Shown here one piece after another: positions 8,309-30,252 of a stretch of 33,408 bases of DNA (the stretch's first letter is position 1; each line of letters begins with the position of its first letter). The position numbers and the translations under genes were made by a program. The DNA comes from Salinicola peritrichatus (GTDB lineage Bacteria > Pseudomonadota > Gammaproteobacteria > Pseudomonadales > Halomonadaceae). The notes beneath the pieces are model-generated. The model had not been told where the DNA came from, did no database searches, and saw only the letters and a list, made by a program, of their open reading frames with translations. Where the stretch lies: assembly GCF_003206715.1 (NCBI RefSeq), contig NZ_PZJU01000022.1, positions 17,353-50,760 on the forward strand, read 5' to 3'.

Positions 8309-9316
8309 TCAGCTCAGCCGGATGACATAGTCCGGCATCTCCGGTTCGGGAAACACCGACAGGCTTTTGAGTCGATCGAGCGTGCGCCACTCCGCGCGCT
8401 CCAGGTGCGTGGTCAGCGCTTCGGCAGCGGCTTGGGGTTGGCGATCTAGCAATAGCTGCAATACCAGTCGGTGCTCTTTGAGACCGGGTTCATGGATCGG
8501 CCGACTAATCTCCTTGAAGAACAGGCGATTGATGGTCAGCGCCGTCTGGGCGTGGCGCAGATTGGAGAGCAGGCGCTGATTGCCGCAGAGTGCCAGGCAC
8601 TGCTGGTGAAGCGCCTCCTCGGCCCATTCCAACTCGCTCAGCTCGGGTTGTGCTGTCGTTATCAGGCGTTCGGTGCGTGTCAGCATCGATTCCAGATTGG
8701 CGGATGCCAGTTGACTGGCCGAATGCTCCAGCGCATGGGGCTCGAGCAGCCGTCTGAGTTCATAGTCCTCACGAATGGCACGGGCGGTGATCGGTCCGGC
8801 CCGCCAACTGGAGTACGGCGACTTCTCGACTAGACCACGCTCCCGCAGGCGCAGCAGCACCTCGCGAATGGCGCTGCGATTGACACCGAAGTGTGCGGCG
8901 GCGCGCTGCTCGTTGATTTGGTAGTGGCCGAACACGACGCAAGTTGCGACCGCCCGATAGATGTCTCCATAGACGCGCTCGCCCGCCGATCGCGTATCCA
9001 TGATCTGGGTCTCTTCATCGAGTCCCAACATGCGCGTCGTCAGTGGCTCGCGTCTTGGCGTCTGCGCCGAGGTCGGCCAGGAGACCAAGTAACCGCGGCC
9101 GTCGAAACGCGTGATCAATCCCTCTGCGTGGAGCATGCCCAGCGCTTTTCTGACCGGGGCGCGGCTTGTGCCGAATAGTGCTGACAGCGGCTGTTCCAGC
9201 AGCACCTGCCCCGGCTCGACGCTACCCCGGCGGATCGCCCGAGCCACCACCCGGTGGATCGTTTCATAGCGCGCGCGTCCATTGAACTTCGCGGTCTGAC
9301 CTGGATCACTCCTCAT
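8309..9316 (-). CDS. GntR-family regulator with two winged-helix domains and an FCD domain
   Basis: A 335-residue transcriptional regulator. The first winged-helix domain (about residues 17-85) contains VARAIRRGSVEPGQVLLEQ, FGTSRAPVRKALGML and the wing RFDGRGYLV. A second one (about 100-165) contains YQINEQRAAAHFGVNRSA and IREVLLRLRERGLVEK. An all-helical FCD-type ligand domain follows (EDYELRRLLEPHALEHSA to HLERAEWRTL). Ordinary FadR/GntR proteins of about 230 residues have one DNA-binding domain, so this one is about 100 residues longer. The ATG at 9316 has AAGGAA upstream; a GTG at 9337 is the alternative. It is divergent from the amidase cluster and is its likely regulator, by position. 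Confidence 0.85.
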   Translation of the reverse strand: MRSDPGQTAKFNGRARYETIHRVVARAIRRGSVEPGQVLLEQPLSALFGTSRAPVRKALGMLHAEGLITRFDGRGYLVSWPTSAQTPRREPLTTRMLGLDEETQIMDTRSAGERVYGDIYRAVATCVVFGHYQINEQRAAAHFGVNRSAIREVLLRLRERGLVEKSPYSSWRAGPITARAIREDYELRRLLEPHALEHSASQLASANLESMLTRTERLITTAQPELSELEWAEEALHQQCLALCGNQRLLSNLRHAQTALTINRLFFKEISRPIHEPGLKEHRLVLQLLLDRQPQAAAEALTTHLERAEWRTLDRLKSLSVFPEPEMPDYVIRLS

Positions 9317-9616
9317 GGAATGGATGTTCCTTATCACGGTCTGCGTCGTCGGGTCCGTTCTGGCGAATTATCGCATATTCCCGCCTGTCCTCCCGATAGG
9401 GATGTTCGAATAATCGACTTTTTGCATCAAAATCCAATTTATTGAGGGCGCTGCCAGCGCCATCTAGCCATTTTTTGCGCTAAAAAGTGATTTCTTGGCC
9501 GGTATAGTTAGTTCTGTAACCACAAAAAAATGACTATTTTTAAAAAAATACGGTTTGTGCTAGCGTTGTCATAGTTTCCCGCATCAGACCCAACAACAAC
9601 GTCACGGGACAGATTG
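9317..9616. promoter_or_regulatory. AT-rich divergent control region, gntR-type gene / amidase cluster
   Basis: A gap of 300 bases, clearly richer in A and T than its surroundings. It contains a dyad GGCGCT-gcc-AGCGCC (9447-9461), a 16-base quasi-palindrome TTTTTTGCGCTAAAAA (9471-9486, one mismatched pair) and a perfect AAAAAT-gact-ATTTTT (9526-9541). A TATAGT box at 9503-9508 lies between the last two but has no good -35 partner. These dyads are candidate binding sites for the adjacent two-headed regulator and mark the probable promoter of the amidase operon. I see no gene here. Confidence 0.45.
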
Positions 9617-10972
9617 ATGACCGACATTCCCTGCTCCGATGCACTCTCGCTGGCCGATGGATTCCGTCACGGTCACTGGACCCCGAGCGATATCGTGGAG
9701 GCTGCACTGAGCTCGGCGACCCGGGCCCCGTATGCTTTCATCGAATATTTGACCGAACGTGCACGACGCGAGGCCGCAGCATCAACCCAACGTTGGCATG
9801 CAGGGCAACCATTGAGTCCGCTCGATGGCGTGCCGATGGCATGGAAAGATCTATTCGATGTGGCAGGCCATGTGACTACGGCCGGAGCCGACTTGCGCCG
9901 CTCGGCAACGCCGGCATCATCCGATGCCGAACTGGTGCGGCTCGCCGCCAGTGCCGGCATGATCTGTCTGGGCAAGACCAACCTGAGTGAATTCGCCTAC
10001 TCCGGGCTCGGCTTGAACCCGCATTTCGGTACGCCAGTGTTGCCCGGTACGCATATGCCATCCCGAGTGCCAGGTGGCTCCTCCAGCGGTTCCGGGGTAG
10101 CCGTTGCGGCAGGCGTCGTACCGCTCGCCATGGGTACCGACACTGCAGGCTCAGTGCGTATTCCCGCTGCCTTCAATGGGCTGGTGGGTTATCGGCCCAG
10201 CCCGGATCGCTACAGCCGTGACGGCATATTTCCGCTCTCCTCGACGCTTGACTGCGCAGGTCCTCTCGCCAGGAGCGTGCGTGATCTGTGTTGTCTGGAT
10301 ACCGTGCTCAGTGATGGCGAGGCGCCGGCACCACCAGCAAGCCTCGATAGCGTACATCTGGTCGTCGATACCCGAGTGCTCGAAGATCCCCAGATCGAAT
10401 CTGCGGTGGCAGCCAATCTCCGCGAACTGGTGATGCGCCTAGAGTGCGCCGGCGCCCGAGTCGAGTGGCGCGAGTACACAGTGTTCGGCGAGACGCTGGA
10501 TCACATCGCCCGCGATGGCTGGCTTGGTAGCCTCGAGGCATTCTTACTGCATCAGTTGCTGCTCGACAGCCATGACGCCGAGCGTCTCGACCCCCGGGTG
10601 CGTTGTCGGCTCGAAGCATCGCGCCCCGTGGATCGGGCGCATCTGGCCTCGCTGCTGGCACGACGCGACGCATTGCAGCAGGCCCAAGCTGAGACGCTTG
10701 GCGACGCCATCCTGGTGACGCCGACCGTCGCTCACGTGGCACCAGAGCTGGCGCCGCTGACCGAGGACGCAGCGCTATTCGCCGAGGTCAACGCAGCGAC
10801 GCTGCGCCTGACCATGCCTGGCAGCCTGCTCGGCATGGCCGGCATCACGCTGCCCTCCGGCGTCGACCGCGCAGGGCTGGCCACCGCCGCGCTCTTCGCG
10901 ACCCGCCGCGGCGAGGACACCCGACTACTGGAGACAATGGCCGCGGTCGAGCGAACACTGACAACCGTTTGA
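9617..10972 (+). CDS. Amidase (amidase signature family)
   Basis: A 451-residue cytoplasmic amidase with the full Ser-cisSer-Lys catalytic triad. K77 lies in VPMAWKDLFD, the cis-Ser S155 in GGSSSGSGVA and the nucleophile S179 in GTDTAGSVRIPAAFNGL; the 24-residue spacing between the two serines matches the family. Members hydrolyse carboxylic amides, half-amides, acylureas or act in GatA; substrate cannot be read from sequence. No gatB or gatC is near, so it is not the tRNA amidotransferase subunit. The ATG at 9617 follows GGGA; a TTG at 9614 is in frame. First gene of the rightward cluster, followed after 71 bases by the deacetylase/imidase-type gene. Confidence 0.9.
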   Translation: MTDIPCSDALSLADGFRHGHWTPSDIVEAALSSATRAPYAFIEYLTERARREAAASTQRWHAGQPLSPLDGVPMAWKDLFDVAGHVTTAGADLRRSATPASSDAELVRLAASAGMICLGKTNLSEFAYSGLGLNPHFGTPVLPGTHMPSRVPGGSSSGSGVAVAAGVVPLAMGTDTAGSVRIPAAFNGLVGYRPSPDRYSRDGIFPLSSTLDCAGPLARSVRDLCCLDTVLSDGEAPAPPASLDSVHLVVDTRVLEDPQIESAVAANLRELVMRLECAGARVEWREYTVFGETLDHIARDGWLGSLEAFLLHQLLLDSHDAERLDPRVRCRLEASRPVDRAHLASLLARRDALQQAQAETLGDAILVTPTVAHVAPELAPLTEDAALFAEVNAATLRLTMPGSLLGMAGITLPSGVDRAGLATAALFATRRGEDTRLLETMAAVERTLTTV

Positions 10973-11004
10973 AGGGCGGGCAGGCGATGGCCCGGCGCCG
11001 CCTG

Positions 11005-11043
11005 CCTTGATCGATACCGGGAAGCGATCAAGGAGTTGTAGCG
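11005..11043 (+). promoter_or_regulatory. Hairpin covering the ribosome binding site of the deacetylase gene
   Basis: A perfect 9-bp inverted repeat, CCTTGATCG (11005-11013) and CGATCAAGG (11025-11033), with an 11-base loop. The right arm contains the first four bases of the AAGGAG ribosome binding site (11030-11035) of the gene starting at 11044. Folded, the stem would hide that site; ribosomes coming from the amidase stop at 10972 would not reach it directly. It could set the amidase:deacetylase ratio or respond to a factor. Confidence 0.6.
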
Positions 11044-11943
11044 ATGACAACAACGACGACGACTCACCAAAAAGAGATCCTGGTCTCGATCGGTGTGGAT
11101 GTGGATGCCGTTGCCGGCTGGCTGGGTTCGTATGGCGGCGAGGACTCTCCGGACGATATCTCGCGGGGACTATTCGCTGGCGAGGTGGGCGTGCCACGAC
11201 TGCTGAAGCTATTCGAGCGTTTCGGTATCACCACCACCTGGTTTGTACCGGGGCACTCGACGGAAACTTTTCCCGAGCAGATTCGGGCCGTCGCCGGTGC
11301 CGGGCATGAATTGGGCGTGCACGGTTACAGCCATGAAAACCCGATTGCGATGACGCCGGAGCAGGAAGAGGCGATCCTCGACCGCGGTATCGAATTATTG
11401 ACCGAGATCGCTGGTAAGCGTCCGACTGGCTATGTAGCACCGTGGTGGGAATTCAGCCCGATCACCAACGAACTGCTACTGAAGAAGGGTATCAAGTACG
11501 ACCACAGCCTGATGCACAACGACTTTACACCTTACTACGTCCGTGTTGGCGACCAGTGGACCAAGATCGATTACAGCCAGCATCCAGAGACATGGATGAA
11601 GCCACTGATCCGTGGCGAAGAGACCGACTTAGTCGAGATTCCAGCCAATTGGTACCTGGATGACCTGCCGCCGATGATGTTCATCAAGAAGTCGCCCAAC
11701 AGCCATGGCTTCGTCAATCCCCGCGATATCGAGCAAATGTGGCGTGACCAGTTCGATTGGGTCTACCGCGAGATGGATTACGCCGTGTTCCCGATCACCA
11801 TTCACCCTGATGTCTCGGGACGTCCCCAGGTCCTGCTGATGCTCGAGCGGCTGATCGAGCATATGCGCGCTCACGCCGGGGTACGTTTCGTCACCATGGA
11901 CGAGATCGCGGATGACTTTCTCAAGCGTCAACCGCGCGGCTAA
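11044..11943 (+). CDS. Polysaccharide deacetylase-family hydrolase (HP0310 PgdA / cyclic imidase type)
   Basis: A 299-residue metal-dependent hydrolase with the NodB fold. Metal and catalytic residues are visible: D19 and D21 in IGVDVDAV, and H93 and H97 in VHGYSHENP. The segments [28 protein letters not shown] and [16 protein letters not shown] are typical of the HP0310 group rather than of NodB or PuuE. From memory, that group includes Helicobacter PgdA and bacterial cyclic imide hydrolases. There is no signal peptide; the N-terminus is a run of six Thr followed by His, so a cytoplasmic small-molecule hydrolase is more likely than a wall enzyme. Beside an amidase and an importer, imide ring opening is plausible but unproven. 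AAGGAG lies 8 bases before the ATG. Confidence 0.85.
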
Positions 11944-11966
11944 CCCGACTTTCCGAGGGCAACACA

Positions 11967-13316
11967 ATGCATAACAACACCTCGCTGTCCCCCGGCATCG
12001 CGCCGGATTTCTCGTTGAACGTGCCGAGTGCCGGCAGCGTTCGCTATGCGACCTGGATCGCCTTCTTCGCGTGGGTATTCGCAGTCTACGACTTCATTCT
12101 CTTTGGCACCCTGCTGCCCGAAATCGGACGTCACTTCGGCTGGAGCGAGGCCGCTCAGGCGGAGCTGGCGACCTGGATCGCGGTCGGCACCGCAGTGGTT
12201 GCCATCGGCATGGGGCCGTTCGTCGATCGCTTAGGGCGACGCGCGGGTATTATCTTCACCGTGGGCGGGGCGGCGGTCTGCTCCGCGCTGACCGCCGTCG
12301 GTGGTGCCTGGGGCAGGCTGCCGCTGATATTGATTCGCTCGGTCGCCGGGCTCGGCTATGCCGAACAGACCGTCAATGCGACCTACTTGAGCGAGCTCTA
12401 CGCGGCCAGCGACGATCCCAAGCTGAAGCAGCGGCGTGGCTTCGTCTACAGCCTGGTACAGAGCGGCTGGCCGGTCGGCGCGCTGATCGCGGCGGCGCTG
12501 ACGGCCATTCTGTTGCCGTTGATTGGCTGGCAGGGCTGCTTCGTGTTCGCCGCGTTGCCATCGCTGGTAATCGCTTTCCTGGCGCGCAAGCTCAAGGAGA
12601 CGCCACAGTTCGAATTGCATCGCGAGATCGGCCGTCTCAAGCAGCAGGGCGAACAGGAGTCCGCACGTCAGCTGGCGCTTTCCCACGATGTCGATTTCGA
12701 CTCCCACAGCAACGCTGGCCTCAAGGGTGCTTTTCAGCCCGCCACTCGGCGTGCGTTGTTCGTGCTGGGCGGTGCGATTCTGCTCAACTGGTTTGCGATT
12801 CAGGTCTTCAGCGTACTGGGCACCTCAGTGATCGTCAGCGTTCATCACGTCTCGTTTGAAAACTCTCTGGTGATCCTGATCCTGTCCAATTTAGTGGGCT
12901 TCTGCGGCTATCTCACTCACGGATGGCTGGGCGATCGCATCGGCCGGCGTAATGCGGTCGGCCTAGGTTGGATCTGCGGCGGCGTCGCCTTCGCCACCAT
13001 GTTGTTCGCGCCCAGCGCTTTCTGGCCGGTGGTAGCGCTCTACAGCATCGGGTTGTTCTTCTTGATCGGACCCTATGCGGCGGTGCTGTTCTTCATCAGC
13101 GAGAGCTTTCCCACCAGCGTTCGGGCCTCCGCAGGGGCGTTGATCAATGCCATGGGGCCGATCGGAGCGGTGCTCTCCGGTGCCGGCGCCACTACCGTGC
13201 TCAGCATGGGCGGGGATTGGCAATGGGCGGCACTGCTGTTCGGTGCGCTGCCATGCCTGCTCTCGGGGTTGCTGATCTTCGCTGCCCGCCACGTCGATCC
13301 GGCCAGCGTGCGCTGA
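11967..13316 (+). CDS. MFS transporter (metabolite:H+ symporter type)
   Basis: A 449-residue membrane protein with about 12 hydrophobic segments, the first starting near residue 27 ([20 protein letters not shown]). MFS motif A appears after segment 2 ([11 protein letters not shown]) and again after segment 8 ([12 protein letters not shown]). A charged central loop of about 60 residues joins the halves. It resembles symporters for organic acids and sialate-like compounds. It lies 23 bases after the deacetylase gene and 28 before the first SDR, in the same direction, so it probably imports the compound handled by the cluster. The substrate cannot be told from sequence. Confidence 0.88.
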
Positions 13317-13344
13317 GCCTCACGCCAACCTCGAGGAGAGCATC

Positions 13345-14118
13345 ATGCATGTAACCACGTCCTCGCCAGTGATGCTGATCACTGGCGCGGCCAGTGGCAT
13401 CGGCCGCGCGCTGGCACTGCGTGCGGCTGAGAGTGGCTGGCACGTTCTCGGTGGGTATTTCCCCGCCGACCCCCACGATCCGGCGCCGGTACGTCAGGCG
13501 CTGAAAGCCCTGGATCCTGACAGCGATCTGCTGGCGTTGGACGTCACCGATGCTGAGTCGGTCGAGGCACTGGCGGAGGTCGCCATGGCACGCTTTGGGC
13601 GTCTCGATGCTGGGGTCGCCAATGCTGGCATCCTGCGCCAGTCACCGCTCACCGAAATGACCGATGTGGCCTGGGAGGCGATGCTCGACGTTGACCTCAG
13701 CGGGGTGATGCGCACCTTCCGAGCCGCCTCGCGTCATCTGAGAGACTGCGGTGCGCTGGTAGCGATTTCGTCGATCGCCGGAGGCGTCTATGGCTGGCAG
13801 GAACACGCCCATTACGCCGCAGCCAAAGCTGCAATTCCAGGGCTGTGCCGTTCGCTAGCAGTGGAATTGGCGCCGCGCGGCATTCGCTGCAATGCGGTGA
13901 TTCCCGGTCTGATCGAGACACCGCAATCCCTAGATGCCGAGAATTCACTGGGACCGGCAGGGCTCGCGGCCGCCGGGCGCAAGATTCCGCTCGGTCGCGT
14001 CGGGCGGCCGGAGGAGATCGCCAGTGTCGTGCTATTTCTGCTCGGACCGGAGGCATCCTATCTCACCGGACAGAGTCTGGTGGTCGATGGTGGGCTCACC
14101 GTGCGTTGGCCCGATTAG
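13345..14118 (+). CDS. Short-chain dehydrogenase/reductase
   Basis: A 257-residue NAD(P)-dependent SDR. The cofactor motif TGAASGIG spans residues 13-20, NAG occurs in VANAGIL, and the catalytic tetrad includes the Ser in AISSIAGG and Y157/K161 in HYAAAKAAI. The C-terminus [12 protein letters not shown] is that of classical SDRs. It lies between the MFS gene (28 bases) and a second SDR (10 bases, whose AGGAG starts on this gene's stop codon), so it belongs to the same transcript. It probably oxidises an alcohol or reduces a ketone in the pathway. Confidence 0.9.
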
Positions 14119-14128
14119 GAGAGCGAAC

Positions 14129-14884
14129 ATGAACGATTCTAAATATCCACGCCGCTGTGTCGTCAGCGGCGCGGCTAGCGGTATTGGACGTGCGATCGCG
14201 CTGGCCTTCGCCGCTGAGGGCGACCGCCTGGTGCTGCTCGATCGCGATGGCGAGCGGCTCGCTCAGGCCGTGATCTCCTGTCGTGATCGGGGTGGTGCCG
14301 AGGTCTTCGGCGTCGAGGCGGACGTTGCAACTCCAGCGGGGGCCTCTGCCGGGGTCGATGCCGCGCTCCAGTACTGGCAAGGCATCGATATTCTGGTCAA
14401 CAACGCCGGGTTGCTGACCCAGGCGCCCTGTACCCAACTCAGCCTAGCGCAGTGGGACGAGATGCTCGATGTCGACCTGCGCTCAGCCTTCCTCGCCTCC
14501 CAGCGGGCACTACCTGCGATGATCGCTCAGCGCTGGGGGCGGATCATCAACATTGCATCCCAGCTAGGGCTGAAAGGCGGTGCAGAACTCTGTCATTATG
14601 CCGCAGCCAAGGCCGGGATGATCGGCTTCACCAAATCGTTGGCGTTGGAAGTCAGTAGCGACAATGTGCTGGTCAACGCTATCGCCCCGGGGCCAATCGA
14701 AACACCGCTAGTCGACGGCATCAGCGCAGCGTGGAAAGCCGCCAAGGCGGCCGAATTGCCTCTGGGACGTTTCGGCCGCGCCGAAGAGGTGGCGCCGACG
14801 GCGTTGCTGCTGGCTTCCGATCCGGGCGGTAATCTCTACTGCGGTCAGACGCTAGGTCCCAACAGCGGCGATGTCATGCCCTGA
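14129..14884 (+). CDS. Short-chain dehydrogenase/reductase (second copy in cluster)
   Basis: A 251-residue SDR with SGAASGIG at residues 13-20, LVNNAGLL, the Ser of INIASQLGLKGG and Y157/K161 in HYAAAKAGM. The reading frame is open far upstream, but the ATG at 14129 is supported by TTAGGAG directly before it and by the cofactor motif starting at residue 13. It is clearly related to, but different from, the preceding SDR, so this is not a recent duplication. One oddity: the usual C-terminal VDGG is replaced by GPNSGDVMP. Two consecutive SDRs suggest two oxidation steps or a heteromeric pair. Confidence 0.9.
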   Translation: MNDSKYPRRCVVSGAASGIGRAIALAFAAEGDRLVLLDRDGERLAQAVISCRDRGGAEVFGVEADVATPAGASAGVDAALQYWQGIDILVNNAGLLTQAPCTQLSLAQWDEMLDVDLRSAFLASQRALPAMIAQRWGRIINIASQLGLKGGAELCHYAAAKAGMIGFTKSLALEVSSDNVLVNAIAPGPIETPLVDGISAAWKAAKAAELPLGRFGRAEEVAPTALLLASDPGGNLYCGQTLGPNSGDVMP

Positions 14885-14908
14885 GCGGCCATCCGCAAGG
14901 AGAGTAAT

Positions 14909-15208
14909 ATGTGTGGACTCTGCGGCCTGCTGGAAGGCTCGCCCCACTGGAGCGAAGTCATCAACAGTGAACTACCGCTACGCCAGCAGCGCTATGCGCG
15001 TATCGCGGCGATCAATCAGGTGCTGGTGAGTCATCGCCTGCGCCTGGAAGATTTCCAGGGCAGCGGATACGTGTTGGCGTCTCCGACCGGGCATCAAGAG
15101 ATGATCGCCAACATCGACGAGCTGTGGACACGAGCCGAGGCATTGAGCGGTACTACGCTCGACCCGCTCGACAGCGAGCTGCTTATCCGATTGGAGTATG
15201 CCACATGA
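14909..15208 (+). CDS. Small protein with N-terminal CxxC, unknown function
   Basis: I do not recognise this 99-residue protein. It begins MCGLCGLLEGSPHW, with Cys2 and Cys5 forming a CxxC pair at the extreme N-terminus; removal of Met would expose Cys2. The rest is soluble and mostly helical (LRQQRYARIAAINQVLVSH, HQEMIANIDELWTRAEALSG), with no other cysteines and no signal peptide or membrane segment. AAGGAGAG precedes the ATG. Its stop overlaps the next start by four bases (ATGA at 15205-15208), so it is translationally coupled to the COG0523 GTPase. A metal-carrying partner or client of that GTPase is a reasonable guess. The MCG start recalls class II glutamine amidotransferases, but the protein is far too short for one. 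Confidence 0.8.
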   Translation: MCGLCGLLEGSPHWSEVINSELPLRQQRYARIAAINQVLVSHRLRLEDFQGSGYVLASPTGHQEMIANIDELWTRAEALSGTTLDPLDSELLIRLEYAT

Positions 15209-16230
15209 CGCCTCCAGAGCGACCTCGACGCGGCGCCGACTACACGATTCTGCCGGTAGTAGTACTGACAGGCTTTCTCGGTAGTGGTAAGACCTCGCTG
15301 CTGACACGCCTGCTGCGTGACGATCCGCCCGGGGAGACAGCGCTACTGATCAACGAGGTTGGTGATGTCGGTATCGACCATCAACTTGTCAGTCCAGTAG
15401 CGCCGGAGGCGCGGCTGTTGCCCAGTGGCTGTGTCTGCTGCTCGATCCGTGGTGAACTCAAGGCGGCGTTGCTGACGCTATACGAACAGCGTCAGCGCGG
15501 TGAGCTGCCACCGTTCCGGCGCGTGATTCTGGAGACCACCGGATTGGCCGATCCGGCTCCGATTCTGGCGACGTTGAGTCATGACTCCCAATTGCGACAT
15601 CACTTCCGGCCGGGACGCATTATCACTGTCATCGACGCGTTGAATGCCGAACTGCAGCAGCGTTGTCATCCGGAGTGGCTGGCTCAAGTTGGCGCGGCTG
15701 ACGAACTGGTCGTCAGCAAGGACGAGCTGCTCGACTCAGAGATCGAGCTGCGCGCGCTGCGGGAATCGCTCGAGCGCTTGAACCCGGCCGCCGAGCACCA
15801 CCTCGGTCGTGATGCCACGCCGGACTGGCTATCGCGCTTCGTCAAAGGTGTCACTGCGGGACCCATGCCGACGTTGCGTCCGGCGGCTTGGAATGATTCG
15901 CTGGCAGCGGCACACGGCGAGATTCGCAACGCTAGCCTGGTGCTGGACAGCCCGATTAATTGGACCCATTTTGGCATCTGGCTGTCGATGCTACTGCGCG
16001 CCCACGGCACCCGGCTATTGCGGATCAAGGGGCTGCTGGACGTGGGCGGGGCGGCGCCGGTCGCCATTCATGGCGTGCAGCACGTGCTGCACCCGCCCCA
16101 GCACCTGGCGGCCTGGCCGGACGATGATCGCCGTTCGAGGCTGGTGTTCATCACCCGAGGCATAGAGCCGGCAATGATCGAGCGTTCGCTGATGCGCTTT
16201 ATGGCCGCACTCTCCCACTCGGATATCTGA
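15205..16230 (+). CDS. COG0523-family GTPase (CobW/YjiA-type metal chaperone)
   Basis: A 341-residue G3E GTPase. Walker A GFLGSGKT spans residues 23-30, the metal-binding CxCC motif (GCVCC) residues 76-79, and the Walker B-like region reads ETTGLADPAP. INEVGDVGIDH matches the family's switch segment. A CobW C-terminal domain follows (LLRIKGLLDVGGAAPVAIHG, VQHVLHPPQHL). The guanine-specificity motif reads SKDE where N/S/TKxD is usual. Family members insert or traffic Zn, Co, Fe or Ni for client enzymes, often encoded nearby. Here the natural candidate client is the metal-dependent deacetylase-type hydrolase of the cluster. No cobalamin genes are present, so a CobW role in B12 synthesis is unlikely. 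Confidence 0.9.
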   Translation: MTPPERPRRGADYTILPVVVLTGFLGSGKTSLLTRLLRDDPPGETALLINEVGDVGIDHQLVSPVAPEARLLPSGCVCCSIRGELKAALLTLYEQRQRGELPPFRRVILETTGLADPAPILATLSHDSQLRHHFRPGRIITVIDALNAELQQRCHPEWLAQVGAADELVVSKDELLDSEIELRALRESLERLNPAAEHHLGRDATPDWLSRFVKGVTAGPMPTLRPAAWNDSLAAAHGEIRNASLVLDSPINWTHFGIWLSMLLRAHGTRLLRIKGLLDVGGAAPVAIHGVQHVLHPPQHLAAWPDDDRRSRLVFITRGIEPAMIERSLMRFMAALSHSDI

Positions 16231-16319
16231 GGAATGCCGCCCTATGTGTTGCAGCGAGCGGAGGGCAGCCGATCGGTCATTGTCACGCTGAAGTTCACGG
16301 CCGGTAAGGGAAAAATGAA

Positions 16320-17495
16320 ATGGCAGTAACCCACACTCGTCCGCGACTCCGGGTACTCGGCACGTCGGTCACACTGCTCGAGCAGATCCGTCGCCGTGCC
16401 GAGCGCGATCTCGACATCGAGTTGGAGTTCATCATACGCAATGCAGCCGATGCCCAGCGCATGGCGGTCATGGAGCCTGAGGCCTATGACGTCTATGATC
16501 AGTGGTTCCACGATATCGATTTTGTGTGGCCAGCCCGGGCGATCCAGCCGATAGACGTCGCACGAATCGCCCGCTGGGATGAGCTGACACTGCGCGCGCG
16601 CGGCCGCACCTCTCAGGGCCTGCTTGACGACGACAGTGTCCCGCTGCAACGTCTCTTCGTACAGCCGGATGGCAATCTAAGCGCCGCACCGAGCGATGCT
16701 ATCAGTATGCTGCCGCTGACTCACAATGTGGACAGCTTCGTCTACTGTGACGAACCACTGCCGGACGGGCTGACCCCGGAAGAGGCCAGTTGGGGATGGC
16801 TGCTGGACGAACGTTTCGCGGGGAGGGTGGCGCTACAGGCCGAGCCCTCGATCGGCGTATTGGATATGGCGCTGGCGGCATCCGCTTGGGGGATGTCGTT
16901 TGGCTGCTTGGGCAACCTTCGGATCGAGGAGATCGACGCCCTCACCGCGCTGTTGCAGCGCAAGCGCAAGAGCGGCCATTTCACCGCGTTCTGGGCCAAC
17001 GAGGCCGAGGCAATGGAGTTGATGGCGAGTCACCGGGTCTGTTTGCAAAGCTTGTGGTCGCCGGCGCTCATGCGGCTACATCGCGGACGCCATCGCTATC
17101 GATTGGCACGGCCGCGGGAAGGCTATCGCGCCTGGCTGGGTGGCATGAGCCTGTCTTGCTCGCTGCACGGTCGCGCGCTCGATGCCGCTTACGCCTACCT
17201 CAACTGGTGGTTGGATGGCTGGCCCGGCGCGGTAATGGCACGCCAAGGCTACTATCTCTCTACCCCAGAGCGCACGCGCCAGCATCTAACGGCCCAGGAG
17301 TGGGACTATTGGTACGTCGGGCTGCCGGCCCGCAGCGGTCTCTGCGATGCCGATGGCGTCGAGTTGATCGCCAAGGGCGCGGTGCGGGAAGGTGGCAGCT
17401 ACACCTCGCGCATGAGTCATATCGGCGTCTGGAACACGGTGATGGACGAGCACAACTATTTGGTTCGCCAGTGGACCCGTGCGCTGGTCGAGTGA
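16320..17495 (+). CDS. PotD-like solute-binding-fold protein lacking a signal peptide
   Basis: A 391-residue protein resembling type 2 periplasmic binding proteins of the PotD/SBP_bac_8 group: LRVLGTSVTLLEQIRRRAE at the start, YDVYDQWFHDIDFVWPA, MLPLTHNVDSFVY, then a C-terminal lobe with YAYLNWWLDGWPGAVMARQ and YYLSTPERT. Binding proteins of this kind normally start with a Sec or Tat signal. Here the first strand (LRVLGTS) begins at residue 10, and a TAA at 16305-16307 in the same frame rules out an upstream extension. No ABC permease or ATPase gene is nearby. It may be cytoplasmic and act as an enzyme, sensor or scavenging binder. AAGGGA precedes the ATG; last intact gene of the cluster, 89 bases after the GTPase. 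Confidence 0.8.
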   Translation: MAVTHTRPRLRVLGTSVTLLEQIRRRAERDLDIELEFIIRNAADAQRMAVMEPEAYDVYDQWFHDIDFVWPARAIQPIDVARIARWDELTLRARGRTSQGLLDDDSVPLQRLFVQPDGNLSAAPSDAISMLPLTHNVDSFVYCDEPLPDGLTPEEASWGWLLDERFAGRVALQAEPSIGVLDMALAASAWGMSFGCLGNLRIEEIDALTALLQRKRKSGHFTAFWANEAEAMELMASHRVCLQSLWSPALMRLHRGRHRYRLARPREGYRAWLGGMSLSCSLHGRALDAAYAYLNWWLDGWPGAVMARQGYYLSTPERTRQHLTAQEWDYWYVGLPARSGLCDADGVELIAKGAVREGGSYTSRMSHIGVWNTVMDEHNYLVRQWTRALVE

Positions 17496-19727: not shown

Positions 19728-19754
19728 GCCAGGATCTCCTTTTCGGGACAGGCG

Positions 19755-19766: not shown

Positions 19767-19875
19767 GACAACGCGAGCCCTGGCGGACTCGCGTATCTCT
19801 GAGGGCAAGCCTAGAAGGTAATTAGCGACTTAACAATTGCCCGCCTCGATCCATGGCATAGGCTTTGATTATCGC

Positions 19876-19887: not shown

Positions 19888-19893
19888 TCAGGA

Positions 19894-20661: not shown

Positions 20662-20688
20662 CGGAAACTCCAGTTCGGAAATCAGCGC

Positions 20689-24463: not shown

Positions 24464-24475
24464 CCTGATGTCAGG
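24464..24475 (-). terminator. Small hairpin at the end of the pxp operon
   Basis: CCTGA-tg-TCAGG overlaps the stop codon of the NCS1 permease gene; on the minus strand it is followed by a pyrimidine-rich stretch (CCCTCTTTTCC). The short 5-bp stem makes termination uncertain. It lies in the 50-base gap between convergent genes. Confidence 0.3.
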
Positions 24476-25814
24476 TCGGCGTGCCCACGCCGTTGCGCGC
24501 CCCCATCCTGAGCCCCATGGCATAGAACGCGTAGGCGCACAGCCCGGTGGCCGGCGCCGAGAAGGCGGCCAGGCCGGGCAACTGCATCACTACCATGCCC
24601 ACCAGGGTGGCGCCGAACCAGGCGCTCAGGCCGCGTGCGTCGTAGGTGCGGGAGAGGCGCTCCGGCGCCGTCGCGCTATCCTCCACGCCGGGAGGGTGGG
24701 CCTGGATGTGGGCCAGCGCCACGCCGACCCAGGCCACCACGAACACGCCCTGATAGGCCAGCGCCTGGAGGATGTAGCCGAACACGTCCGCCATCATCAG
24801 CAGGTAGGCCAGCACGCCGATGATGCAGCCGGAGACCGCCTTGGAGAGCTTGGTGCCGGTGAGCTTGTGCACCAGCGCCTCGAAGTTGATCGTCGCCAGA
24901 TAGTAGTTGGCGGTGTTGATGCGGCTCTGGGTCACCCATACCAGCAGCAGTCCGCCGAAGCCCATCAGTTCGAGCAGCCCGAGCACCACCGAAATTTCCG
25001 ACAGACCTTCCACCGGAATCATGGCATCGAGCAGGATGCCGACGATGCCGCTGAACAGGAAGGTCATCAGGTAGAACGGTACGCCGAAGGTCACCCGGGC
25101 GTGGAAGGCGGCGTCCTTGCGGCGGCCGAAGCGGGCGTAGTCGAAGGTGAACATCATCAGCACCCAGACCCCCATGTAGTAGGCGAAGGTCTGGGCCCAG
25201 CCCCACGGCGAGGCGCTGCCTTCGGGCACCCGGGTCAGCCAGCCGTCGGGATAGCCGAACTCGGCGAGCGCCATGCCGACGGCGATCAGCATGCCGATGA
25301 CGTAGGCCGGCAGCAGTACGCCGTTGAACTTGTCGAGCCAGTGCTGGACGCTGCCGAAGATCAGCGACGCGCCGAGGATCGCGACGATAGCGGTGCAGAT
25401 GGCCATGCTCAGGCCGCCGCTCCATTCACTCAGCACCAAGGCCATCACGTAGCCCTCGAACACCGCGTAGTAGAGGGCGGTGGCGAAGAAGATCAGGCTT
25501 GCCAGCAGCGCGCCCGCCTGGCCGAACAGGCGGCGCGAGAACAGCCCCACGGTGAGCCCGGTGCGAATCGCGTAGCGGCTGATCAGGGCGTTGATCAAGC
25601 CGTAGGCGAGTACCGTGAGGACGATCCCGATCAGGGCGTTGACGGTGCCGTAGCTGCGCGCCATCGCCGCCGCCACCACCATGTAGAAGATCGCGCTGCA
25701 TACCGCCCACCAGGCCATCATCAGATTGGCCCTGGGCATGCGCCCGGCATCGGGCACCGGGCATTCGGAAAAGTCGAGGTCGGCGCCTGTCTGCGCCTGG
25801 GGTGCGTTAGCCAT
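24471..25814 (-). CDS. NCS1-family permease (cytosine/allantoin/hydantoin transporter type)
   Basis: A 447-residue membrane protein with about 12 hydrophobic segments. ANLMMAWWAVCSAIFYMVVA at the first segment, GLTVGLFSRRLFGQAGALL, and the central PWGWAQTFAYYMGVWVLMM with FDYARFGRRKD match the nucleobase:cation symporter-1 family. It is the last gene of the leftward pxpA-accB-accC-pxpB-pxpC series, 136 bases after pxpC. Family members carry cyclic ureides and nucleobases. Its position suggests import of the cyclic amide used by the operon, such as 5-oxoproline or a related lactam or ureide. Substrate not readable from sequence. Confidence 0.87.
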   Translation of the reverse strand: MANAPQAQTGADLDFSECPVPDAGRMPRANLMMAWWAVCSAIFYMVVAAAMARSYGTVNALIGIVLTVLAYGLINALISRYAIRTGLTVGLFSRRLFGQAGALLASLIFFATALYYAVFEGYVMALVLSEWSGGLSMAICTAIVAILGASLIFGSVQHWLDKFNGVLLPAYVIGMLIAVGMALAEFGYPDGWLTRVPEGSASPWGWAQTFAYYMGVWVLMMFTFDYARFGRRKDAAFHARVTFGVPFYLMTFLFSGIVGILLDAMIPVEGLSEISVVLGLLELMGFGGLLLVWVTQSRINTANYYLATINFEALVHKLTGTKLSKAVSGCIIGVLAYLLMMADVFGYILQALAYQGVFVVAWVGVALAHIQAHPPGVEDSATAPERLSRTYDARGLSAWFGATLVGMVVMQLPGLAAFSAPATGLCAYAFYAMGLRMGARNGVGTPT

Positions 25815-25860
25815 GATGAAGATACCTTTTGTTGTGCTTGTCTTCGCAGGGTTTCAAGGG

Positions 25861-25930
25861 GCACCGGGCGGTGCGAAGTCATGGTGATGGGGCGGGTTTC
25901 TCCTTGGCTGGACCCGGCGCGGACGCCGGG
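25861..25930 (-). other. Two intra-operon hairpins between pxpC and the permease gene
   Basis: The 136-base gap holds a perfect 7-bp stem CCCGGCG-cgga-CGCCGGG (25913-25930) and a 5-bp stem GCACC-gggc-GGTGC (25861-25874). Neither is followed by a T-tract on the minus strand. They could stabilise the upstream RNA or lower expression of the permease; they could also be copies of a dispersed palindromic repeat. Confidence 0.4.
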
Positions 25931-25950
25931 CCGGTGGAGGGTCGTGGTGC

Positions 25951-26922
25951 TTACGGCATTCGCCGCAGTGCCTCCAGGGTGTCGCGATATTCTCGCCTTG
26001 CCGCCAGCGCCTGCTCGAGATCGACCGCCTCGAAGCGCACCTGCTGGTGCGGCTGGATCTGGCCGACCCAATCCATGTCGGCGCTGATCACGGTGCCGAT
26101 CATGGCGTAGCCGCCGCCGGAGACGGCGTCGCGGTGCAGGATGATCGGCTCGCTGCCGCTGGGAACCTGGATCGATCCGATCGGATAGCAGGCATCGACG
26201 ATGTTCGATGGGTCGTCGCCGGCGCCGAACGGTGGCTCGCGTTCGAGAAACGACAGCGACGAGCCGCCCTTGAGACGATAGCCGATGCGGTCGGCTTCGG
26301 AGGCCACCGCCCAGGTCTCGGCATAGAAGCGCTCGCGGCTTGCCGCTTCCAGGCGATGGTCGTAGATGCCGGGCACCACTCGCAGCCGGTAGTGCTTGGC
26401 GAAGCGGGGCAGCAGCGCCTCTGGCAGTCGACGGCCCGGACGCGGCGGCGTCACGGCGGGCAGCGTCGCCAGGCGGTCGCCGGCCTTCAACGGGCGGCCT
26501 TCCACGCCGCCGAGCCCGCCCAGGGCGTAGGTGCTGCGGCTGGCGAGCTTCTCTGCAACGTCGAAGCCACCCTCCACCGCCAGATAGAGGCGCGCCCCGG
26601 CGCGCACGAAATCGAAGCCCAGGGTGGCGCCCGCCGGCACCTCGAATACTTCGTTGAGCGGCTGCGGCTGGCCGTCGACCTTGGGCACCATCTCGGCGCC
26701 GCAGGCGGCCACGCAGCGGCGTTCGTCGAAGCGCAGCTCCGGCCCCATCAGCGCGCACTCCAGCACCGCCGCGCCCTCGGGGTTGCCGAGCAGGAGGTTG
26801 GCCGCGCGCAGCGAGCGCTGGTCCATGCCGCCGGAGGGTGGAATGCCCAGATGGTAGTAGCCTGTGCGACCCAGGTCCTGGACCGAGGTGGCGAGCCCAG
26901 GCTTGATCACGTCGATGGTCAT
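25951..26922 (-). CDS. pxpC: 5-oxoprolinase subunit C / carboxyltransferase A/B subunit (KipA, AHS2)
   Basis: A 323-residue protein of the KipA/PxpC group, homologous to the CT A/B domain of urea carboxylase. Signatures are VIKPGLATSVQDLGRTGYY, GIPPSGGMDQRSLRAANLLL, GNPEGAAVLECALMGPELRF, SEADRIGYRLKG and the C-terminal ADMDWVGQIQPHQQVRF. With PxpA and PxpB it forms the ATP-dependent prokaryotic 5-oxoprolinase. AAGGAGGTG, an unusually strong site, precedes the ATG at 26922, and the start overlaps the pxpB stop by four bases (ATGA), so the two are coupled. Longer open sequence upstream in this frame is pxpB in another frame. Confidence 0.92.
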   Translation of the reverse strand: MTIDVIKPGLATSVQDLGRTGYYHLGIPPSGGMDQRSLRAANLLLGNPEGAAVLECALMGPELRFDERRCVAACGAEMVPKVDGQPQPLNEVFEVPAGATLGFDFVRAGARLYLAVEGGFDVAEKLASRSTYALGGLGGVEGRPLKAGDRLATLPAVTPPRPGRRLPEALLPRFAKHYRLRVVPGIYDHRLEAASRERFYAETWAVASEADRIGYRLKGGSSLSFLEREPPFGAGDDPSNIVDACYPIGSIQVPSGSEPIILHRDAVSGGGYAMIGTVISADMDWVGQIQPHQQVRFEAVDLEQALAARREYRDTLEALRRMP

Positions 26923-27809
26923 TGCAGCACCTCCTTGACGCGGATGGCGGTGGCGTCGGGATCGCCCTCGAAAGCGTCCAGGTCGAAGGTGAACGGTGCC
27001 ACCCGGGGGCGGAAACGTCCGGCTTCGGCATCCGCTTGCAGGCGGTCGTGGGTGGCGCGATCGATGGCGCGGTGTTTCACGATGTCGCCGGGACGGAAGA
27101 AGATCATCGAGTCGTCGATGTGCGGCTGGCCGCCATCGGGGTCGTAGATCGGCATCGGGGTGATGCCGAACATCTGGTAGCCTCCGGCGCCGCGCACCGA
27201 GTAAATGCAACTGAAGCAGCCGCCGTAGCCCACCGTCTGCTTGGGCGTGTCGGTGCGCGGGCGCAGGTACTTGGGTACCTGGAGCTGGCGTTCGCGCGGC
27301 ACCATCTGGTACATGAACGGCAGTCCGGCGACGAACCCCACCATCGAGACGAACCAGGGGCTGGCGCTGTGGGCCTCGATGAAACCCGCGGGCGTGGAGA
27401 AGCCGTTGATCCGCGCGGCGTAATCGAGGTCGCTGCCTGAAGGGTCCTGGTGGCGGTCGCGGAAGCGCATCAGCGTCTCTCGCGTCCACGGGTCGTCGTA
27501 GAGCACCGGCACTTCGATCACCCGGGTCTCGAGGGTGCGTTCACGCTGGGCGGCGACCTCGTCATCCAGGCTCTTCAGGATCTCGATCAGGCGCTCGGCG
27601 GAGATCAGGTCGGGTTCGTAGCGCACCTGGTAGGAGGCATTGGCGGGGCAGATCTCGATGATCCCGGGCAGGGCCAGCGCACGCAGTCGTTGGGTGATGG
27701 AGAGGGCGCGGAAGAAGGCGTCCAGCGCCATCTCCTCGCTCACTTCCACGAACAGATATTCGTCGGCGGCCAGGCTATAGCGCGCCGGGGATGGCGTTTG
27801 GGTCGTCAT
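26919..27809 (-). CDS. pxpB: 5-oxoprolinase subunit B / carboxyltransferase C/D subunit (KipI, AHS1)
   Basis: A 296-residue protein of the KipI/PxpB group. The C-terminal cyclophilin-like CT C/D domain contains GFSTPAGFIEAHSASPWFVS, GFVAGLPFMYQM, VPKYLRPRTDTPKQTVGYGG and GAGGYQMFGITPMPIYD. It is longer than Bacillus KipI (about 240), with extra length before and after the core. The ATG at 27809 overlaps the stop of the biotin carboxylase gene (ATGA, 27806-27809), and its own stop overlaps pxpC the same way, so accC-pxpB-pxpC are translationally chained. Such tight linkage implies a complex of fixed stoichiometry. Confidence 0.92.
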   Translation of the reverse strand: MTTQTPSPARYSLAADEYLFVEVSEEMALDAFFRALSITQRLRALALPGIIEICPANASYQVRYEPDLISAERLIEILKSLDDEVAAQRERTLETRVIEVPVLYDDPWTRETLMRFRDRHQDPSGSDLDYAARINGFSTPAGFIEAHSASPWFVSMVGFVAGLPFMYQMVPRERQLQVPKYLRPRTDTPKQTVGYGGCFSCIYSVRGAGGYQMFGITPMPIYDPDGGQPHIDDSMIFFRPGDIVKHRAIDRATHDRLQADAEAGRFRPRVAPFTFDLDAFEGDPDATAIRVKEVLQ

Positions 27810-29185
27810 CGCACGGCCTCCTTCGCGGGGGTGGTGGCCGGCCGAGAGGAGAGCCAGCGCTCGAGAAAGCCGGTATCCACCTCGGCACTGCGCAACTGCG
27901 GGGTGTCGAGCAGGCGGCGGTGCAGACCGGCGGTAGTGGCGAAGCCCTCCAGCACGAGTTCGTCGAGGGCTCGGGCGGCGCGCGCCAGGGCAGCGTCGCG
28001 GCTGTCGTCCCACACGATCAGCTTGGCCACCAGCGAGTCGTAGAAGGGCGGCATGCGATAGCCCTCGTAGAGGCCGCTGTCGACGCGCACGCCGGGGCCG
28101 CTCGGCCACGCCAGCCGCTGTACCACGCCGGGAGAGGGGAAGAAGTCGCGCTCGGGGTCCTCGGCGTTGATGCGCATCTCGACCGCCCAGCCGCGTCGCT
28201 GGATGTCGGATTGGGTGAAACGCAGCGGTTCGCCGCCGGCCAGGCGCAGCATCTCGCGCACCAGGTCGATCCCGGTCACCGCCTCGGTGATCGGATGCTC
28301 GACCTGGATGCGGGTATTCATCTCGATGAAGAAGAATTCGCCGCTGGTTTCGTCGAACAGATATTCCAGCGTGCCGGCGCCGAAGTAGCCGACATGCTCG
28401 GTCAGCGCCACCGCCGAGTGGCACAGCGCCTCGCGGGTGGGTTCGTCGAGGGCCGGCGAGGGGCACTCCTCGAAGATCTTCTGGCGGCGGCGCTGCAGCG
28501 AGCACTCGCGCTCGAACAGATGCACCGCGCGCCGGCCGTCGCCGAGTACCTGCACCTCGATGTGCCGGGCTCGGGCGATGAAGCGCTCGAGATAGACCCG
28601 GTCGTCGCCGAACGCCGCCCGAGCCTCGGCCTGGGCCGCCCGTAGCTGCGCATCGAACGTGCCGGCGTTCTCCACCACACGGATGCCGCGCCCGCCACCG
28701 CCGGCGGCGGCCTTGATCAGCAACGGGAAGCCGATGTCTTCGGCCAGCGCCAGCGCTCGGGCGGGATCGCTCACCGCCCCGGGGGAGCCGGGCACCACCG
28801 GCACGCCGGCGTCGATCGCCGTCTGGCGAGCCATCGCCTTGTCGCCCATGCGCTCGATGATGGCGGCATCCGGGCCGACGAACACCAGGCCGGCGTCGGC
28901 CACGGCTCGCGCGAAGGCGGCGTTCTCGGAGAGGAAGCCGTAGCCCGGATGTAGGGCATCGGCCTCGCAGGTGCGGGCCGCGTGCAGTATCGCCTCCGGG
29001 TTCAGGTAGCTTTTGGCGGCCTGGGGCGGTCCGATGCAGATCGCGGCGTCGGCCTGGCGCGCCGCCAGCGAGTCGGCATCGGCCTCGCTGTGGGCGACGA
29101 TACTGCGGATGCCCAGTTCGCGGGCGGCGCGTACGATGCGCAGGGCGATCTCGCCGCGATTGACGATCAGCAGACGGCGGATCAT
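27806..29185 (-). CDS. Biotin carboxylase subunit (AccC-like)
   Basis: A 459-residue ATP-grasp enzyme that carboxylates biotin on a carrier using bicarbonate and ATP. The N-terminus RRLLIVNRGEIALRIVRAA, HPGYGFLSENAAFARA, the glycine-rich AAAGGGGRGIRVV, RHIEVQVLGDG, ECSLQRRRQK and EMNTRIQVEHPITEA are all standard. The ATG at 29185 overlaps the accB stop (TGATG). It is probably a pathway-specific paralogue of the fatty-acid AccC: it sits inside the pxp operon, not beside a fatty-acid accB. With AccB, PxpB and PxpC it supplies the BC part of a split urea-carboxylase-like enzyme. Confidence 0.92.
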   Translation of the reverse strand: MIRRLLIVNRGEIALRIVRAARELGIRSIVAHSEADADSLAARQADAAICIGPPQAAKSYLNPEAILHAARTCEADALHPGYGFLSENAAFARAVADAGLVFVGPDAAIIERMGDKAMARQTAIDAGVPVVPGSPGAVSDPARALALAEDIGFPLLIKAAAGGGGRGIRVVENAGTFDAQLRAAQAEARAAFGDDRVYLERFIARARHIEVQVLGDGRRAVHLFERECSLQRRRQKIFEECPSPALDEPTREALCHSAVALTEHVGYFGAGTLEYLFDETSGEFFFIEMNTRIQVEHPITEAVTGIDLVREMLRLAGGEPLRFTQSDIQRRGWAVEMRINAEDPERDFFPSPGVVQRLAWPSGPGVRVDSGLYEGYRMPPFYDSLVAKLIVWDDSRDAALARAARALDELVLEGFATTAGLHRRLLDTPQLRSAEVDTGFLERWLSSRPATTPAKEAVR

Positions 29186-29430
29186 CACTCGCCCTCCAGC
29201 GTGGCGATGGCTTGTCCCGCCTCGACCACGGTCTCGTCCTCGACCTCGAACGTGATCAGCGTGCCGGTGGCTTCGGCGCGCAGTTCGCAGAACTGCTTCA
29301 TGACCTCTATCAGGCCGATCACGGTGTCCGCTTCGACCCGCTGCCCCGGTTCCACGAACGGCGGCTGGTCGGGGGCGGGACGGCGATAGAAGACCCCAGG
29401 GAACGGGGCCTGGATGGGCTGCTGCGGCAT
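29185..29430 (-). CDS. Short biotin carboxyl carrier protein
   Basis: An 81-residue biotinyl domain and little else. The biotinylation site is K45 in LIEVMKQFCEL, 36 residues from the C-terminus as usual. PFVEPGQRVEADTVIG and ETVVEAGQAIATLEGE form the two halves of the lipoyl-like fold. Fatty-acid AccB is about 150 residues with a Pro/Ala linker, so this compact version is probably dedicated to the operon's own carboxylase. The motif is EVMK, as in other acetyl-CoA carboxylase carriers (consensus E[AV]MK). It overlaps the biotin carboxylase gene by one base and lies 51 bases after pxpA. Confidence 0.92.
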   Translation of the reverse strand: MPQQPIQAPFPGVFYRRPAPDQPPFVEPGQRVEADTVIGLIEVMKQFCELRAEATGTLITFEVEDETVVEAGQAIATLEGE

Positions 29431-29481
29431 GCGGCTGCCTCCTCGTGTGTTGTGGTTGTTGGGAATCGGGCTCGGGGACGC

Positions 29482-30252
29482 TTACGCCGCCTGTTGTCTC
29501 GGCGACCGGATCTCGAAACCTGCCTGCTCCAGCGTCTCACGGGTGGCACGTATCAGCGCCAGTGCGCCGGGGGTATCGCTGTGGAAGCAGACCGACTGGA
29601 AACCGACCGCCACCCGGCGGCCGCTGATGCTCTCCACCACGCCGTCGCGACAGGCCGTCAGCACCTTGTGTGCCACCGCTTGGGGGTCGAGGGCGTCGGT
29701 CCGGCGCACCAGGATGATGCTGCCTTGATCGTCGTAGTCGCGGTCGGCATAGAATTCGTGCACCCGATTCAGGCCCGCCTCGGCGGCGGCCCGGTCCAGT
29801 GCCGAGCCGGCCAGGCAGTAAACCGACAGATCCGGCGCCACTTGGGATAACGCCCCGGCCAGAGCGGTGGCATAGGTCTTGTCCCGGGCCGCATGCATGT
29901 AGAGTGCGCCGTGCAGCTTGAAGTGATGCAGCCGTAGGCCTTCGCGACTGGCCAGTTCGCGCAGGGCGCCCAGTTGGTAGAGCGTATCGTCGACCAGTTC
30001 GTCGGCACTGGCGTCGATATGGCGTCGGCCGAAGCCGACCAGATCGCGAAAACTGGGGTGAACGCCGACGGCGACGCCGTGGCGGGCTGCCTCGCGCAGC
30101 ACCCGGCTCATGGTGGTGGGATCGCCGGCATGAAAGCCGGCGGCGACATTGGCCGCGCTGATCAGGGGCAGGATCTGGCTGTCGATACCTTCGCCGATGC
30201 ACCAGGCACCGAAGCCTTCCCCCATGTCCGCGTTGAGGTCGATTGTTGTCAA
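29482..30252 (-). CDS. pxpA: 5-oxoprolinase subunit A (LamB/YcsF family), TTG start
   Basis: A 256-residue LamB/YcsF hydrolase subunit. Signatures are TIDLNADMGEGFGAW at the N-terminus, SAANVAAGFHAGDPTTM, GVAVGVHPSFRDLVGFGRR, HFKLHGALYMHAARD and FYADRDYDDQGSII. In PxpABC this subunit takes part in ATP-dependent opening of 5-oxoproline to glutamate; fungal LamB acts in lactam use. The TTG at 30252 is the best start: CAGGAGA lies 6-7 bases before it and the protein then begins MTTIDLNAD, as in the family. The upstream ATG at 30276 would put extra basic residues before the core. First gene of the leftward operon, divergent from the LysR gene. Confidence 0.9.
   Translation of the reverse strand: MTTIDLNADMGEGFGAWCIGEGIDSQILPLISAANVAAGFHAGDPTTMSRVLREAARHGVAVGVHPSFRDLVGFGRRHIDASADELVDDTLYQLGALRELASREGLRLHHFKLHGALYMHAARDKTYATALAGALSQVAPDLSVYCLAGSALDRAAAEAGLNRVHEFYADRDYDDQGSIILVRRTDALDPQAVAHKVLTACRDGVVESISGRRVAVGFQSVCFHSDTPGALALIRATRETLEQAGFEIRSPRQQAA

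Follow-up and report, generated by a model that had tools for sequence, protein, structure and literature searches.

A stretch of 33,408 nucleotides from Salinicola peritrichatus (contig NZ_PZJU01000022.1, positions 17,353 to 50,760; hereafter the window) holds an operon in which an HP0310/imidase-type metal hydrolase is accompanied by an amidase, a transporter of the major facilitator superfamily (MFS), two short-chain dehydrogenases/reductases (SDRs), a small CxxC protein, a COG0523 GTPase and a PotD-like binding protein, all faced by a GntR regulator. The linkage of the hydrolase, the CxxC protein and the GTPase is almost exceptionless in the sampled genomes. Based on this linkage and on the families of the enzymes, we hold with moderate confidence that the genes would form an inducible operon for the breakdown of a small cyclic imide or a hydroxylated lactam, equipped with a dedicated metal-maturation pair.

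Linkage of the hydrolase with the CxxC protein and the COG0523 GTPase

Gene linkage was counted in those fetched stretches that reach 10 kb or more, shorter ones being left out. At 61 of the 62 distinct loci with a hydrolase of at least 60% identity, both the CxxC and the COG0523 gene are present; with two contigs that had been retrieved twice (L012/L102 and L013/L101) the count is 63/64. Neither partner is found at the six loci with hydrolase relatives of 35-54% identity, two of them haloarchaeal and four bacterial. The starts of the CxxC and COG0523 genes lie no more than 1.2 kb apart in all 65 stretches that hold both, and in 13 of these 65 the CxxC protein is present and the window-type binding protein is not. 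Loci L012 to L049 had been picked by their binding protein; the class sample, the 398-genome search, the same-family search and the plasmid-hydrolase search are free of such bias.

The search independent of the binding protein covered 398 sampled Pseudomonadota genomes with a hydrolase threshold of E 1e-40. Hydrolase relatives were found in 13 genomes, ten at 65-100% identity and three at 38-39%. A CxxC profile search of the same genomes, in which at most the best 12 candidates per genome were scored, returned ten genomes, the very ten in which the identity of the hydrolase reaches 65% or more (Fisher p 4e-20 by genome and 3e-13 by genus, phylogeny being ignored). In the class sample the CxxC protein was found in five of 369 genomes, each time with the hydrolase in the same stretch, and in the same-family genome search both partners stood at all seven hydrolase places. 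Among plasmids, 59 of the best 60 of 105 hydrolase records have the CxxC protein, 57 by the CxxC search lists and two (L063 and L119) in fetched stretches; the COG0523 gene was checked in the fetched stretches only. The sequence-only reading of the window had predicted that CxxC, COG0523 and HP0310-type genes would be found together in other genomes, and they are. Its further proposal, that the CxxC protein and the GTPase load metal into the hydrolase, is supported by this co-occurrence; the metal and its transfer we infer. Metal loading is likely the best reading of these data, which are the strongest that we have.

The COG0523 start codon at 15205 overlaps the CxxC stop codon by four bases (ATGA), which suggests that the two genes may be translationally coupled. 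In an alignment of 60 distinct CxxC sequences, C2 is kept in 59, and C5, the Trp of column 14 (W14) and an Asp-Pro pair near the end are kept in all. The structure model of the CxxC protein (mean predicted local distance difference test score, pLDDT, 78.6) has an alpha-beta-beta-beta-alpha-alpha body, and residues 1-4 and 6-13 score below 50. Comparison of the model with known structures, the Frataxin/CyaY fold included, gave no convincing match. The GTPase has the CobW nucleotide-binding and C-terminal domains and a CxCC motif; the motif is present in all 59 CxxC-linked GTPases and in two paralogues of the window's genome (L001 and L004).

The hydrolase and the proposed pathway

Judged by its sequence, the hydrolase is a member of the HP0310/HxnM-type imidase family. 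It aligns with Helicobacter pylori HP0310 over the full length and without a gap (292 aligned residues, phmmer E 3e-161), and the family has biochemically known imidases: fungal HxnM is structurally like HP0310 and 64% identical to the Pseudomonas putida YZ-26 imidase (AAY98498), which joins the family by way of HxnM (PMC9304392). The earlier assignment to the HP0310/imidase type is upheld by both lines of evidence. Residues D19, D21, H93, H97 and H254 correspond to D12, D14, H86, H90 and H247 of HP0310, its ligand and water-binding residues, of which D14, H86 and H90 bind the metal (PMC3084791). The five are kept in 55 of 57 distinct hydrolases of at least 60% identity and in all five lower-identity relatives, in an alignment that excluded sequences with stops, short alignments and duplicates. 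Inspection of the N-terminus by eye revealed no hydrophobic segment and no export signal. HP0310 itself is a tetramer with no signal peptide and a poorly accessible site, and its structure was termed atypical by its authors (PMC3084791). An identity as the allantoinase PuuE was considered for the window's hydrolase and rejected, the TIGR03212 score being 82.6 bits against a cut-off of 424.6.

In the proposed pathway, the MFS protein would import the compound, and one or both SDRs would oxidise a ring or side-chain hydroxyl, converting a cyclic hydroxy-amide to an imide. The hydrolase would then open the imide to a half-amide, from which the amidase would release ammonia and a dicarboxylate. 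The maturation pair would deliver a divalent metal to the Asp-His-His site of the hydrolase: the flexible N-terminal thiols of the CxxC protein may carry the metal or pass it on, and GTP binding and hydrolysis on the CxCC GTPase would gate the transfer. The signal-less PotD-like protein would act with the two-headed GntR regulator, its cytoplasmic ligand being the substrate or an intermediate. We infer the substrate class, the order of the reactions, the metal, its transfer and the sensing from the gene families. An imidase followed by an amidase, as the sequence-only reading had it, is likely correct in outline, in view of the hydrolase family and of the amidase (34 of 62 hydrolase loci) and asparaginase genes that recur, the latter beside the hydrolase at several other loci.

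Several observations weigh against this reading. HP0310 was inactive on N-acetylglucosamine (GlcNAc), chitotriose, acetyl polyamines, acetyl dipeptides and allantoin (PMC3084791) and active on chitin, chitosan, acetylated xylan and p-nitrophenyl acetate (PMC3688963); in the available parts of both papers, allantoin is the sole ureide on the substrate panels and no cyclic imide is among the compounds. In the COG0523 tree, built from 64 rows (59 CxxC-linked sequences and five paralogues of the window's genome, with stops, short alignments and duplicates dropped), paralogues L001 and L004 sit on long branches among the 59 CxxC-linked rows; the tree does not set these two apart from the linked GTPases, and it neither supports nor contradicts a clade of their own for the latter. 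The metal site does not explain the linkage, because all five partnerless lower-identity relatives keep the ligands. Plasmid CP021373 carries an 82% identical hydrolase (L118, 7995-8873) with both partners missing from the stretch; an adjoining hydrolase and CxxC gene are on another plasmid of that strain, CP021372. On two Paraburkholderia plasmids (L097, 10061-11319, and L120, 8001-9340) the CxxC and COG0523 genes adjoin an allantoinase/dihydroorotase-family gene, and the 16-20 kb fetched around them contain no imidase-type hydrolase, so that the pair is not confined to an imidase client. To our knowledge, the fungal HxnM works without a CxxC partner, and the partners may therefore matter only under metal scarcity.

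Other explanations divide into those that change the substrate and one that uncouples the maturation pair from the hydrolase. A doubtful but serious alternative has a hydantoin, dihydropyrimidine, ureide or lactam as the ring compound, with the hydrolase acting as a hydantoinase- or lactamase-like enzyme. Genes for a dihydropyrimidinase, an N-carbamoyl-D-amino-acid hydrolase, an Asp/Glu-racemase-family protein, HyuAB and an NCS1 permease are found at other loci, and PuuE, structural kin of HP0310, opens allantoin (PMC3084791). The window also has a 5-oxoprolinase-like module, and 16 of 75 other stretches, all 10 kb or longer, contain a portion of it that includes YcsF or one of the carboxyltransferase domains; in this count one contig figures twice and one stretch (L048) has neither the imidase nor the window-type binding protein. 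Such neighbours, however, vary between loci and are no part of the eight-gene operon, the biochemical relatives YZ-26 imidase and HxnM are imidases, and HP0310 was inactive on allantoin. It is unlikely, and a little more so, that the CxxC protein and the GTPase work for zinc allocation in general, or for some other enzyme, and are merely co-inherited with the hydrolase. A subset of COG0523 proteins does act in zinc homeostasis (PMC2770081, PMC9164220), and the pair without the hydrolase in Paraburkholderia and the one hydrolase locus without the pair point the same way. The linkage nonetheless holds across very different neighbourhoods and on an actinobacterial plasmid, whereas relatives of the window's amidase, SDR1 and MFS protein are far less constant, being found at 34, 34 and 29 of the 62 distinct hydrolase loci.

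A lower nicotinate or hydroxypyridine pathway like that of the fungal hxn genes, with 3-hydroxyglutarimide as substrate, would use the same SDR, imidase and amidase set, and 1.1 kb past the downstream end of the operon there is a gene for an old yellow enzyme (compare HxnT). Old-yellow-enzyme relatives elsewhere are weak (27-32% identity) and confined to two of 75 other stretches, and no pyridine hydroxylase was seen in the annotated neighbourhoods, the genome not having been searched for one; we regard this pathway as improbable. Still less probable is a deacetylase of peptidoglycan or N-acetyl sugars, as the name of HP0310 would have it. The HP0310 knock-out has more acetylated peptidoglycan (introduction of PMC3084791), and the activities on chitin, chitosan and acetylated xylan agree with the name, but the protein has no signal peptide, the HP0310 site is poorly accessible and fails to act on GlcNAc or chitotriose, and the hydrolase shares its operon with dehydrogenases, an importer and C-N hydrolases of small molecules. 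Catabolism of polyamine derivatives by deacetylation of acetylpolyamines, an idea of earlier authors drawn from polyamine-importer neighbours, has very little probability in our judgement: the PotD/PotF fold of the binding protein would suit it, whereas HP0310 is inactive on N-acetyl polyamines and the aligned binding proteins have an invariant G-Y-R-x-W where PotD has G-G-I-F-W.

Operon structure, regulator and neighbouring genes

All nine genes are open at the coordinates and on the strands given in Table 1, eight of them on the plus strand with short gaps and the GntR gene divergent on the minus strand, and the sequence and Pfam matches bear out every identity and strand that the sequence-only reading had given. 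Neither the CxxC protein nor the binding protein has a Pfam match at E 0.1 or an NCBIfam match at E 0.01.

Table 1. Genes of the proposed imide operon, its regulator and the second module of the window
Feature	Coordinates	Strand	Basis
GntR/FCD-family regulator; two winged-helix DNA-binding segments (residues ~24-85, ~146-173), one FCD domain	8309..9337	-	Pfam (GntR E 7e-22, FCD E 2e-13)/NCBIfam
Amidase-signature amidase, PRK06102 family (572 bits vs cut-off 559); proposed half-amide hydrolase	9617..10972	+	Pfam (PF01425 E 3e-66)/NCBIfam
HP0310/imidase-type metal hydrolase	11044..11943	+	Pfam (Polysacc_deac_1 PF01522 E 2e-16), phmmer, ligand alignment
MFS transporter, proposed importer; nearest NCBIfam aromatic acid/H+ symport group, far under cut-off	11967..13316	+	Pfam (MFS_1 E 2e-42)/NCBIfam
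SDR oxidoreductase 1	13345..14118	+	Pfam (E 2e-63)/NCBIfam; SDR pair recurs elsewhere
SDR oxidoreductase 2	14129..14884	+	Pfam (E 1e-55)/NCBIfam; ATG 14129 read from sequence
99-residue CxxC protein, N-terminal M-C-x-x-C-G; proposed metal carrier	14909..15208	+	Alignment, structure model
COG0523 (CobW/YjiA-type) G3E GTPase with CxCC motif; proposed GTP-driven metal insertase	15205..16230	+	Pfam (cobW E 2e-38, CobW_C E 3e-20), tree
PotD/PotF-fold solute-binding protein without signal peptide by eye; proposed intracellular GntR partner	16320..17495	+	Profile, predicted fold
5-oxoprolinase-like operon: NCS1-like permease, CT_A_B, CT_C_D, biotin carboxylase, biotin carboxyl carrier protein (BCCP), LamB/YcsF (PxpA)	24471..30315	-	Annotation

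A profile match (1pot, E 2e-11) and the predicted fold (7xjm PotD1, Foldseek E 5e-17) both mark the binding protein as PotD-like. By eye, neither it nor any window-type relative has a signal peptide; signals were judged from the N-termini, and several frames run upstream into the previous gene, their exact starts being unsure. No ATP-binding cassette (ABC) permease or ATPase is among the annotated genes of the window. At 18 other loci there is a paralogue at 26-37% identity that has a twin-arginine-like signal by eye, and at the five annotated loci among these the signal-bearing paralogue adjoins ABC permease genes. The window's protein shares the fold of the polyamine-binding PotD/PotF proteins and departs from them in the missing signal, the missing permease and the G-Y-R-x-W motif. 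The long two-headed GntR regulator is found at 47 of 54 distinct loci with a window-type binding protein (49/56 with the repeated contigs) and at none of the 23 without, and three of the seven loci lacking it (L032, L079 and L119) lie at stretch ends. Upstream of the regulators, within at most 500 bases, a search for a GntR-like consensus gave no shared site, and a palindrome count over 17 gammaproteobacterial loci gave no shared operator, the best being present in 6/17. The binding protein looks cytoplasmic from its N-terminus. Because it has no signal and tracks the two-headed GntR, we favor an intracellular sensor pair over a role in uptake; a role as an enzyme is possible.

The gene set is common to Halomonadaceae, Enterobacterales and Burkholderiaceae. 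A binding-protein scan yielded 38 loci for comparison of gene order, and L047 to L049, with partial binding-protein matches, were dropped from gene calling. The order is almost constant in Halomonas, Phytohalomonas, Pantoea, Enterobacter, Mangrovibacter, Prodigiosinella and Caballeronia, with the regulator on the far side in Caballeronia. Across these seven genera the hydrolase is the most conserved protein (81-91% identity); the ranges are 56-72% for the binding protein, 45-63% for the COG0523 GTPase and 41-65% for the CxxC protein. Three Brenneria loci and one Pantoea bin have no amidase relative nearby, and the MFS gene is displaced in Burkholderia. The cluster occurs sporadically: among the genomes listed, 17 others belong to the same genus, and the hydrolase is absent from all of them at E 1e-40. 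Plasmids of Klebsiella and Paraburkholderia carry the operon too. In L064 (7256-16376), from a conjugative plasmid of Klebsiella pneumoniae, the entire operon is followed directly by insertion sequences, and five Klebsiella plasmid records match the hydrolase.

Elsewhere the hydrolase is set in Pot-like ABC operons of rhizobia, in dihydropyrimidinase and asparaginase operons, in an NCS1 permease operon, in a hydantoin-type operon with an N-carbamoyl-D-amino-acid hydrolase (N-carbamoylase) and HyuAB, and on the actinobacterial plasmid; an Asp/Glu-racemase-family gene and 5-oxoprolinase-like genes are also among its neighbours. The Halomonadaceae genome G790, one of those behind the seven hydrolase places of the same-family search, has two hydrolase copies (L102 and L106); their settings differ, and a separate CxxC and COG0523 gene accompanies each copy. 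On a Rouxiella plasmid (L100, 8001-8869) the hydrolase gene is split in two and both partners are absent from its surroundings; the length filter keeps it out of the 62 loci. Two haloarchaeal plasmids (L071 and L072) have hydrolase relatives of 51-54% identity and no CxxC or COG0523 gene in the stretch; that of L072 adjoins an asparaginase gene.

The second module of the window, the 5-oxoprolinase-like operon, includes one of the two YcsF genes of the genome and, from its annotation, would fit a theme of ring-amide catabolism. Between the two operons, on the minus strand at 18594-22110, lie genes for the old yellow enzyme (N-ethylmaleimide reductase-like, below cut-off), an SDR and a GntP permease. 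The old yellow enzyme was rejected as a conserved pathway part on the weakness and rarity of its relatives given above, and GntP relatives were found at none of the other loci compared.

Relation to known systems

The closest known counterpart is the HxnW-HxnM-HxnN series of Aspergillus nidulans, which likewise combines an SDR, an HP0310-family imidase and an amidase, at the level of families only, and has transporters in its regulon. HxnM opens 3-hydroxypiperidine-2,6-dione after the SDR HxnW and before the amidase HxnN (PMC9304392, PMC8478523). The bacterial operon differs in having a second SDR, the CxxC protein, the COG0523 GTPase, the binding protein and the GntR regulator, and has no evidence for nicotinate. 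A devoted maturase is also known from Nha3, the COG0523 protein of Fe-type nitrile hydratase, which likewise serves one C-N metalloenzyme (PMC9164220); the fold and metal of that client differ, and the CxxC protein is an addition here.

H. pylori HP0309-HP0312 shares with the operon the HP0310 hydrolase (HpPgdA) and HP0312, a named COG0523 member (PMC2770081). HP0309 (N-carbamoyl-D-amino-acid amidohydrolase), HP0311 (hypothetical) and HP0312 are tabulated as not in Helicobacter cetorum (PMC3866246), and HP0310 does not occur in the text of that paper. The four genes fit a module of the same kind, in which HP0311 would be a candidate for the CxxC protein. Part of the linkage between the hydrolase and COG0523 was already seen in 2011, because a gene-cluster figure was anchored on HP0310 and HP0312 (PMC3084791, Figure S1). 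A literature search for COG0523 with polysaccharide deacetylase returned only a regulon table with unrelated loci, a search for HP0310 with HP0312 returned PMC3084791 alone, and the term 'cyclic imide hydrolase' was in no paper among the matches listed.

We tentatively extend these comparisons, at less than even confidence, to a wider proposal. Together, the CxxC protein and the GTPase would make up a metal insertase dedicated to cyclic-amide hydrolases, which has travelled with these enzymes through Pseudomonadota and Actinomycetota, and HP0310-HP0312 would be the same module. 'PgdA' would then be a hydrolase of cyclic imides or related compounds, whose conflicting activities came from wrong substrates and incomplete metal loading, and the PotD-like protein would be a former transport receptor turned intracellular GntR sensor.

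The cluster is more strongly conserved than the reading of a single sequence could show. Known clients are missing for many COG0523 GTPases (PMC9164220); for the GTPase of this operon the linkage allows a client to be named, one that can be tried with purified components. The operon may be a bacterial counterpart of the fungal SDR-imidase-amidase sequence, a sequence with a ring-opened product not previously found in the nicotinate pathways of bacteria. It also suggests an unusual partnership, in which a GntR regulator is paired with a solute-binding protein of the cytoplasm. The same linkage logic calls into question the peptidoglycan-deacetylase label of HP0310.

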